Source: Kandleria vitulina DSM 20405
Lineage (GTDB): Bacteria > Bacillota_I > Bacilli_A > Erysipelotrichales > Coprobacillaceae
Length of the DNA stretch: 44,012 bases
NCBI RefSeq assembly: GCF_000702065.1
Contig: NZ_JNKN01000017.1
Coordinates: 1-44,012, forward strand
Direction: 5' to 3'
How positions within the stretch are numbered: the first letter of the stretch is position 1; each line of letters opens with the position of its first letter. Of this stretch, positions 20,327 through 36,854 are shown one piece after another. Made by a program: the position numbers and the translations under genes. The notes under the pieces were generated by a model. The model ran no database searches. It worked only from the letters and a program-made list of their open reading frames with translations, and was not told where the DNA came from.

Positions 20327-20348
20327 TTAAGAAAATCTTAAGAAACAG
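20327..20348 (+). repeat. two 11-bp TTAAGAA repeats upstream of the -35
   Basis: Units TTAAGAAAATC and TTAAGAAACAG are perfectly tandem and end two bases before the -35 hexamer. The period and position suit an OmpR-family activator site. Confidence 0.7.
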
Positions 20349-20396: not shown

Positions 20397-20440
20397 TTAA
20401 GAAATTCTTAAGAATTACGTAAGAATTTCTTAAGGAAAGA
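20397..20440 (+). repeat. four tandem 11-bp TTAAGAA repeats in the predicted leader
   Basis: Units at 20397, 20408, 20419 and 20430 read TTAAGAAATTC, TTAAGAATTAC, GTAAGAATTTC and TTAAGGAAAGA. The last unit runs into the ribosome binding site. The same repeat family appears at 34358-34445 and 36293-36314. Confidence 0.75.
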
Positions 20441-20448
20441 GGATAAAT

Positions 20449-20964
20449 ATGAATAAATTAATTAAGAAATTAACAATGTTCGCATTAGCTTTTATTATAA
20501 TGGGTGGCGCATTTGCCATTAGTGCTGAAAACAGTGAAGCATTCGCTGCTACAAATAAAGCAAGAGTTTACGCTGAGTTAAAGGCATCAGGCTACAGCAA
20601 GGCTACAGCTGCTGGAATCATGGCTAACATCAAGCATGAATCTAACTACAACCCAAACGCTGGACGTGGCGCTTATGGTTTAATTCAGTGGACTGGTTCA
20701 AGAAAGAGCGCATTAAAGAGATATGCTAAATCTAAGAAATTAAGTTACAAGTCAGTTAAAGCTCAGATCGGTTATATGAACAAAGAGCTTAAGAGTGGAT
20801 ATAAAGGACTTTACAAACATCTTAAGACAGTAAAGAACAATAAATCTGGTGCTTATAAAGCAGCTCATAAGTTCTGTTATGATTTTGAAAGACCTGCCAA
20901 TAAATCAAGTCGTTCAAAGAAACGTGGCAATACTGCTAAGAAGATTTATTCAAAGCTAGCATAA
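20449..20964 (+). CDS. secreted phage-tail-lysozyme-like protein
   Basis: This 171-residue exported protein has a Sec signal peptide (about 1-34: basic start, hydrophobic core, AFA ending). The mature part resembles the phage tail lysozyme domain: YAELKASGYSKATAAGIMAN, then IKHESNYNPNA with the likely catalytic Glu, and AYGLIQWTG. The rest is very lysine-rich and contains no separate wall-binding module. It probably cleaves peptidoglycan, either for wall turnover or as an anti-competitor lysin. It stands alone with its own promoter, repeat array and terminator, and no phage genes are nearby. AAAGAGG precedes the ATG. Confidence 0.8.
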   Translation: MNKLIKKLTMFALAFIIMGGAFAISAENSEAFAATNKARVYAELKASGYSKATAAGIMANIKHESNYNPNAGRGAYGLIQWTGSRKSALKRYAKSKKLSYKSVKAQIGYMNKELKSGYKGLYKHLKTVKNNKSGAYKAAHKFCYDFERPANKSSRSKKRGNTAKKIYSKLA

Positions 20965-34330: not shown

Positions 34331-34359
34331 TTTACATATCGGAATAAATTGTGTATATT
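34331..34359 (+). promoter_or_regulatory. candidate promoter of the 3D-like secreted protein gene
   Basis: TTTACA (34331-34336) and TATATT (34354-34359) are spaced 17 bases apart. If used, the whole repeat array lies in the leader. An alternative -10, TATTCT at 34430-34435 inside the one divergent repeat unit, would make the array an activator site instead. Confidence 0.55.
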
Positions 34360-34445
34360 AAGAAAAACTTAAGAATTACTTAAGAAGTAGTTAAGAAATA
34401 TGTAAGAACTGCTTAAGAATTATGAAAGGTATTCTTAAGAATTAA
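34358..34445 (+). repeat. eight tandem 11-bp TTAAGAA repeats
   Basis: Units start at 34358, 34369, 34380, 34391, 34402, 34413, 34424 and 34435, with no gaps. Six read TTAAGAANNNN, one GTAAGAACTGC, and one is divergent (GAAAGGTATTC). Unit 34369 is identical to unit 20408 (TTAAGAATTAC). The array ends right before the AAAGGAG site of the following gene. Confidence 0.85.
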
Positions 34446-34463
34446 AAAAAGGAGACCCACTGT

Positions 34464-35087
34464 ATGAAGAAATTATTTAGTAAGTCGCTTTTAAAAATTG
34501 TTATGATGATGACATTGGCACTAGGATTAAGTGCACTTTCAATAGATCAGGCAGCTGCCAAAACAAGTAATCAGGAAATCGCTCTTCCTATTACTCATAC
34601 CTTAGATGCTGCTACAAAAACAGCTTCTCGTAAGGTTAAGATTGCTCATAAGGCAATGCAGATGGCCAAATATAAGAAATATACTATTAAAAATGGTGTT
34701 AAGTTCTATACTTACTTTAAAGCAGAAAATGTATCAGACATTGAAAATAGTGAAACATATAAGGCTGTTCAGTCTGTAAGAACTACTAGTTCAAGATTAA
34801 CTAAATCAGCTGGTGCTATTACTGGTCCTAATGGTAAGGAAACATATTACAACTTAAATATGAACGGTGTTGTTCGTATTATGAGAAACCATGGTAATAC
34901 TGATAAGTATTGGGTAAGAAGTGATGGTGTTAAGATGCTTGGTAACTATGTTATGATTGCAGCTGATCAAGCAAGAAGACCACTTGGTTCTATCTATGAA
35001 ACATCTTTAGGATTAGGTATTGTATGTGATACAGGTTCATTTGTATCAAGCAATCATAATCAGACAGATATTGCGACAAATTGGTAA
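34464..35087 (+). CDS. secreted protein with 3D-like (double-psi barrel) domain
   Basis: This 207-residue exported protein has a signal peptide (about 1-32, ending QAAA-KT). The C-terminal half reads MLGNYVMIAADQARRPLGS, ETSLGLGIVCDTGSF and QTDIATNW, with aspartates spaced like the '3D' domain of RlpA/MltA-type barrels and Rpf2-like proteins. Such domains cut or bind peptidoglycan glycans; activity here is inference. The N-terminal half is a helical stretch of unknown role. It has AAAGGAG before the ATG, is monocistronic, and shares its upstream 11-bp repeats with the lysozyme-like gene at 20.4 kb, suggesting joint control of wall-acting secreted proteins. Confidence 0.7.
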   Translation: MKKLFSKSLLKIVMMMTLALGLSALSIDQAAAKTSNQEIALPITHTLDAATKTASRKVKIAHKAMQMAKYKKYTIKNGVKFYTYFKAENVSDIENSETYKAVQSVRTTSSRLTKSAGAITGPNGKETYYNLNMNGVVRIMRNHGNTDKYWVRSDGVKMLGNYVMIAADQARRPLGSIYETSLGLGIVCDTGSFVSSNHNQTDIATNW

Positions 35088-36272: not shown

Positions 36273-36295
36273 TAATTTGCCTTTTTGGCAAATTA
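36273..36295. promoter_or_regulatory. 9-bp inverted repeat over the -35 (possible operator)
   Basis: TAATTTGCC-TTTTT-GGCAAATTA is a perfect dyad. It covers the -35 (TTGCCT) of the XRE regulator gene, so it may be an autoregulatory operator. Confidence 0.5.
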
Positions 36296-36304
36296 AGATA
36301 TACT
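36277..36304 (+). promoter_or_regulatory. promoter of the XRE regulator gene
   Basis: TTGCCT (36277-36282) and TATACT (36299-36304) are spaced 16 bases apart. It would give a very short leader, with transcription starting at about the ribosome binding site. Confidence 0.5.
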
Positions 36305-36314
36305 TAAGAGTAAG
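36293..36314 (+). repeat. two 11-bp TTAAG repeats
   Basis: TTAAGATATAC and TTAAGAGTAAG are tandem, overlap the -10 and abut the GGAG site. They look like a minimal version of the arrays at 20.4 and 34.4 kb, though two short AT-rich units could be chance. Confidence 0.4.
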
Positions 36315-36323
36315 GAGAACACA

Positions 36324-36854
36324 ATGGGAAAAAGATCAATCAAGGAAAATAAAAATATTTACTTTCTTACAAGAGAAGAACAAGGACTAACTAGACTAGA
36401 AGCAAGTGAACGTACGGAAGGTATCATCACTGCCAGTCGTCTAGAAAAAATAGAGAACGAAAAGATTCAGCCTCATCCTGAAGATATTCTTGCCCTTGCA
36501 AAGGCTTATAATAAACCTTCACTCATTCATCATTTTTGTTCACATGAATGTGCTATCGGCAAGATTCATCGTCATGATGTGCATATCTCATCATTATCAG
36601 AGATTGTATTAAGTACACTTTCTACATTAAATACATTAAACAAAGAAAAAGATCGACTTATTGAAATCACCGAAGATGGGATCATCTCTGATGATGAACT
36701 AGAAGATTTTGCGATGATTGCCAATCAGCTAGAAAAAATATCCATAACTGCGGACGCACTTAATCTTTGGGTCAGTGATACAATTGCCTCAGGGAAAATA
36801 GACAAAGAAAAATTCGAACTGATTCGCAACGAAAAAAGAAGTATAGAGAGGTAA
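36324..36854 (+). CDS. XRE-family helix-turn-helix regulator with Cys/His cluster
   Basis: This 176-residue protein has an N-terminal HTH (about 10-68, REEQGLTRLEASERTEGIITASRLEKIENEKIQ-like) followed at once by H69 H70 x C72 x H74 x C76 xxxx and H82, H84. That Cys/His cluster resembles the YYCSxxCPIG-type segment seen in some clostridial XRE proteins and could bind metal. The C-terminal half (about 90-176) is helical. TAAGGAG precedes the ATG. It is five bases upstream of a gene of unknown function and is probably cotranscribed with it. Confidence 0.68.
   Translation: MGKRSIKENKNIYFLTREEQGLTRLEASERTEGIITASRLEKIENEKIQPHPEDILALAKAYNKPSLIHHFCSHECAIGKIHRHDVHISSLSEIVLSTLSTLNTLNKEKDRLIEITEDGIISDDELEDFAMIANQLEKISITADALNLWVSDTIASGKIDKEKFELIRNEKRSIER

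Follow-up and report, generated by a model that had tools for sequence, protein, structure and literature searches.

An eight-unit array of 11-bp direct repeats before a gene for a secreted 3D-like protein in Kandleria, a predicted response-regulator operator within a small cell-wall regulon

The window analysed here, a whole stretch of 44,012 nt, contains a gene for a secreted protein with a predicted promoter, a Shine-Dalgarno sequence and an array of short direct repeats directly upstream (Table 1). Direct reading of the 88 bp of the array resolved eight 11-bp units without gaps and in a single register, namely six TTAAGAA-N4, one GTAAGAA-N4 and one GAAAGGTATTC. Strict units occur at most six in a row in the window, compared with a maximum of two in 200 Markov-1 shuffles and of one in 200 Markov-3 shuffles. 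When each unit could carry one mismatch and a single skip was permitted, the run covered 7/8 units, and 100 shuffles gave only two runs of three. These counts confirmed that the eight-unit array is real and exceeds shuffle expectation, as the initial annotation had described it (eight gapless in-register copies, seven of them fitting and one divergent). It had also reported a unit identical to one in an array 14 kb away, and indeed TTAAGAATTAC occurs both at 34369 and at 20408, within the array at 20397-20440. The divergent unit is likewise present, but it is not peculiar to this locus, with GAAAGAA-type units recurring in arrays of a sister genus. A low-complexity or slippage artefact was rejected: conservation is confined to the 7-mer, with the linker free to vary, and the orthologue of another genus has an array as well.

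Table 1 Features of the target locus, the associated regulon and the candidate regulator
Feature	Position	Strand	Sequence or remark
-35 of predicted promoter	34331..34336	+	TTTACA; together with the -10, scores best among sigma-A-like pairs of the 230-bp upstream region; G019 orthologue matching, TTGACG-16-TACAAT
-10 of predicted promoter	34354..34359	+	TATATT; predicted transcription start ~34366
Array of eight (T/G)TAAGAA-N4 units	34358..34445	+	unit 1 overlaps the -10; units 2-8 in the leader
Unit 1	34358		TTAAGAAAAAC
Unit 2	34369		TTAAGAATTAC
Unit 3	34380		TTAAGAAGTAG
Unit 4	34391		TTAAGAAATAT
Unit 5	34402		GTAAGAACTGC
Unit 6	34413		TTAAGAATTAT
Unit 7	34424-34434		GAAAGGTATTC, divergent GAAAG-type variant
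Unit 8	34435		TTAAGAATTAA
Shine-Dalgarno	34451..34455	+	GGAGA; from sequence
Target gene	34464..35087	+	secreted 207-aa protein, 3D/YuiC-like C-terminal domain (invariant D154, D189, D202)
Second regulon site, two units	20327..20344	+	ends 6 bp upstream of the -35 (TTGACT 20351, TATAGT 20373)
Second leader array, four units	20397..20440	+	between the TTGACT/TATAGT promoter and the Shine-Dalgarno
Second-site target	20449..20964	+	secreted Phage_lysozyme2 protein (PF18013, E 1.3e-38)
Exact-pair region	before the target gene (34464)		
Exact-pair region	before the lysozyme gene at 20449		
Exact-pair regions (two)	before L003 and L004		NlpC/P60 genes
Exact-pair region	before L005		secreted protein with Ig-like repeats; C39-like by eye
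L016, VanR-like response regulator	G000:C19:3632-4333		beside pyrG; own sensor kinase

The target protein starts with a signal-peptide-like segment, followed by a helical stretch and, at the C terminus, a domain that is widespread in Erysipelotrichia and Clostridia, and three Asp residues of the protein are invariant among 50 relatives. No Pfam family was found for it, and neither the target nor any of the 49 further sequences aligned with it matched the Pfam 3D family. At the fold level, YuiC of B. subtilis was the top match (VIA Z 5.3 and Foldseek E 0.043, both weak), and a profile search placed YuiC among the best matches at a weak E of 0.043, with MltA lower. The earlier description of the product as secreted and 3D-like is borne out weakly by fold, YuiC coming first in three comparisons of which none was strong, but not by a Pfam 3D match; we regard "3D-like" as a fair label.

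The TTTACA and TATATT hexamers are separated by 17 bp, and the final two bases of TATATT already belong to unit 1. Two promoter models had been proposed previously. One, in which this promoter places the array in the leader, is in our judgment highly probable, because the G019 orthologue (48% identical) has a promoter (TTGACG-16-TACAAT), then six units, then a Shine-Dalgarno sequence. Units between the -10 and the Shine-Dalgarno also occur at 20397, at L005, at lysozyme-like genes of G019 and G020 and at Ig-like genes of Sharpea. All leader arrays that were found are in forward orientation, and several end just before the Shine-Dalgarno. In the other model, the same kind of regulator would activate the target gene, with the first six units recruiting RNA polymerase to a TATTCT promoter inside the array. 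The TATTCT within units 7 and 8 is a fair match to a -10, and activated promoters often lack a -35. However, the hexamer 17 bp upstream is AACTGC, unit 8 would fall on or downstream of the start, and the G019 orthologue has a good promoter ahead of its array and no equivalent -10 inside it. This arrangement is improbable, and TATTCT was rejected as the -10 for its poor -35 partner and its lack of conservation.

Pattern searches of the whole 2.13-Mb Kandleria genome for the exact pair (T/G)TAAGAA-N4-(T/G)TAAGAA returned 11 occurrences, confined to five intergenic regions that each lie ahead of a gene for a secreted protein. The target-gene array belongs to a small regulon of secreted, mostly cell-wall enzymes. 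Among their products, that of L005 gave no Pfam C39 match. Pairs with one mismatch were rejected as further members, being found at control frequency and mostly within genes. The exception is L304 (G000:C9:14693), in which a one-mismatch pair precedes the gene for a secreted protein, lysozyme-like by eye, that is probably a further member. Additionally, TTAAGATATACTTAAGAG lies at 36293-36310 of the window, directly before the Shine-Dalgarno of an HTH_3 gene at 36324; it has two mismatches and may be due to chance.

Across 43 genomes of Coprobacillaceae, including Sharpea azabuensis and S. porci, TTAAGAA-N4-TTAAGAA precedes genes for secreted Ig-like/NlpC proteins, lysozyme-like (Phage_lysozyme2) proteins, NlpC/P60 proteins and C39-type peptidases, with a minority of other genes. 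At sites upstream of promoters, 15 of 17 cases have a gap of 4-6 bp between the last forward unit and the -35, and the other two a gap of 8 bp, while reversed units, seen at NlpC genes, end 7-8 bp before the -35 in five cases; these loci were picked from hits and many of their target genes are homologous, so the trials are not independent. The promoters concerned often have a degenerate -35 (TAGACA, TGGACA) and a good -10. Together, the spacing, the degenerate -35 and the good -10 give the picture of an OmpR-family activator. The leader arrays depart from the 4-6 bp spacing to the -35.

Arrays of at least six units were found at the target gene, its G019 orthologue (six), the G020 lysozyme gene (six) and, in an upstream position, the NlpC genes of G019 (six to seven). 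In every extracted array of at least three units, the 5'-most unit is perfect, and in most of them the match declines toward the 3' end, a polarity that was not forced by the method, as extension followed the same rule in both directions. Among the 62 units of these arrays, in which A3, A4 and G5 were fixed by the extraction rule, position 6 is A in 59, position 1 is T in 40 and G in 14, and position 2 is A in nine; TTAAG is most often preceded by C.

The initial annotation had named loss of the repeats in relatives that keep the gene as evidence against a functional array. The outcome was mixed. Sharpea keeps the gene together with the motif, but its three units, with one spacing of 12, precede the promoter rather than lying in the leader, and more distant orthologues have no array. 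A scan for at least three near-perfect units at target-homologue loci in 80 genome contigs and 45 viral contigs revealed no array of the target-gene kind, and it missed the three Sharpea units with their spacing of 12. As far as these genomes indicate, the gene retains its motif but at a changing position, which is how transcription-factor sites behave. In both Sharpea species, the signal-peptide frame of the target orthologue (L108 ~2590-2720, and L028) reads ATG ATG AAT TGA AAG AAA, with an in-frame TGA at codon 4.

A further reading is that the leader copies act in RNA, with UUAAGAA repeats either serving an RNA-binding protein or affecting translation or mRNA stability. Forward-only leader arrays, several of which end just before the Shine-Dalgarno, would fit such a role, and the lysozyme-gene leader folds better than shuffles (z -3.9). 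On the other hand, the leaders of the target gene and its G019 orthologue have no clear structure (z -1.6 and -1.7), and no structure common to the leaders was found. Moreover, units, including the GAAAGAA variant, also occur upstream of the -35 in both orientations, outside the expected transcript, and the motif of the Sharpea orthologues lies upstream of the promoter. We consider an action in RNA very improbable. The TAACTGA leader heptamers of Beggiatoaceae (PMC4679880), for which a translational role was proposed, are likewise forward-orientation heptamer repeats just before start codons, but they run head to tail without a 4-bp linker and show no functional pattern in their targets.

As a DNA element, the array is very probably the operator of an OmpR/PhoB-type response regulator, a prediction from its sequence and that of its relatives. 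It looks like an unusually long variant of a known operator type. The PHO boxes and complex operators of Streptomyces PhoP (PMC4415409) are also 11-nt direct repeats of seven conserved and four less conserved positions, variable in number and quality, although their core is GTTCACC in S. coelicolor and their context is the phosphate regulon. VanRG has the consensus (T/C)CGTANGAAA(T/A)T, and VanR sites are described as 12-bp motifs (PMC4405338). At P_YG, this OmpR-family regulator recognizes direct repeats with a GTANGAA core, upstream of the -35 and in a cell-wall context, and its consensus resembles our GTAAGAA units. Yet three 12-bp motifs precede a resistance operon there, whereas up to eight 11-bp units are found here, with T favoured over G at position 1, autolysin-type targets and an array placed in the leader.

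Nine OmpR-type regulators were matched in the Kandleria genome, none of them above a curated equivalog cut-off. L016 scored 279 bits against NCBIfam VanR (cut-off 350) with VanR still its best family, and it is accordingly called VanR-like, not VanR. An L016 orthologue was present in 23 genomes, none of which carries fewer than two pairs. The 20 other genomes lack it, and 18 of these have one pair at most. The mean number of sites was 5.6 in the genomes with the orthologue (1.2 for a reversed-pattern control) and 0.45 in those without it (control 0.35). The p-values of this co-occurrence (Fisher 3e-10; by genus, Mann-Whitney 2e-4) overstate the evidence, because the 23 genomes appear as one clade in a regulator tree of 30 genomes and may represent a single event. 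The co-occurrence supports L016, short of proof. The comparison covered four of the nine regulators, L014 to L017. L017 is present in nearly all genomes, so its co-occurrence does not discriminate. L015 was rejected, its orthologue being missing from G011, G021-G024 and G029, all with sites, and present in many genomes without them. L014 was rejected less strongly, being missing from G029, which has seven sites. In the recognition helix, 14-15 of 15 residues are identical across seven L016 orthologues; L015 shares 14 of 15 with L016, so the helix does not separate the two. Overall, L016 is the likeliest regulator of the array, with a somewhat better than even chance.

Another response regulator, the CiaR-like L020, the PhoB-like L014 or L017, might bind the operator instead, which we consider unlikely, if well short of negligible. 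CiaR of streptococci binds NTTAAG-N5-TTTAAG, an 11-bp direct repeat (PMC3091779), and RR_1586 of C. difficile binds DRTTAAGNWWW twice (PMC6222199); both consensus sequences share TTAAG at an 11-bp period with the array. CiaR also has a role in the cell envelope, and the L020 recognition helix resembles that of CiaR (VVEVYVSKVRKKL). The L014 orthologue of Sharpea has a pair 50 bp ahead of its gene, which counts against L016. However, the invariant third T of CiaR corresponds to position 2 here, the position with A in nine units, and CiaR leaves unspecified the nearly constant A of position 6. CiaR sites consist of two units 10 bp before the -10, and the CiaR recognition helix is unlike that of L016. 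RR_1586, likened here by site sequence and not by orthology, also has two units, and its targets are transport, sporulation and signalling genes. In the Kandleria genome, no pair was found near the L020, L014 or L017 genes, and the absence of L014 from G029 despite its sites weighs against that regulator.

No pair with two or fewer mismatches occurs near the L016 gene in the Kandleria genome, which counts against L016 and led us to reject its autoregulation. In favour of the VanR-like candidate, five genomes have a second VanR-like regulator gene that is preceded, at ~50 bp, by an exact pair (G032 (L226), G002:C27, G003:C26, G004:C65 and G033:C6).

The initial proposal of a long response-regulator array bound cooperatively has good support, as far as sequence comparison can speak to it, from the head-to-tail period of 7+4 bp, the fixed promoter spacing and the cell-wall regulon. 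One regulator monomer would bind each 11-bp unit, head to tail, and two near-perfect units beside the -35 would form an activator site. In long arrays, near-perfect units lie by the promoter and mostly weaker units outward, a polarity that suggests nucleation and cooperative spreading. Because the target-gene array begins at the -10 and extends over the first transcribed bases, the most likely effect of bound regulator would be to repress or limit transcription, and the 3D-like protein would then be made most when the regulator is inactive. Such a repressive role of the leader array is about an even call. In B. subtilis, the yocH product is a 3D-domain protein. WalR activates yocH and represses iseA (PMC7299342, PMC4478028). 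By analogy, one regulator here may switch on some hydrolases from upstream sites and hold down others from sites covering the start. The two systems differ in that none of the nine Kandleria regulators passes the NCBIfam YycF (WalR) cut-off of 340 bits, the best reaching 205. Taken as a whole, the combination of an extended operator, L016, a cell-wall regulon and a leader brake is the best explanation, and we hold it to be slightly on the probable side. A broader reading, in which a core VanR-like two-component system would take a WalRK-type role in part of Coprobacillaceae and long polar arrays would act as graded cooperative brakes over transcript starts, is a good deal more speculative and rather unlikely.

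These results predict that a family of gut bacteria has an undescribed regulon of cell-wall enzymes, for which a candidate regulator can be named. Moreover, the arrays occur naturally with 2 to 8 units, each at a known distance from its promoter, and so form a series in which to test how activation, repression and cooperativity depend on half-site number and position.

Some further features were noted. The kinase partner of L016 (L016:1737-2867) seemingly has, by eye, two membrane helices joined outside by a very short loop, a layout resembling that of intramembrane-sensing kinases. The L020 gene comes after a gene for a secreted protein with cell-wall-binding-like repeats that is L,D-transpeptidase-like by eye. 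In G032 (L226), a kinase-like gene and a gene for a C39-type peptidase lie downstream of the second VanR-like gene.
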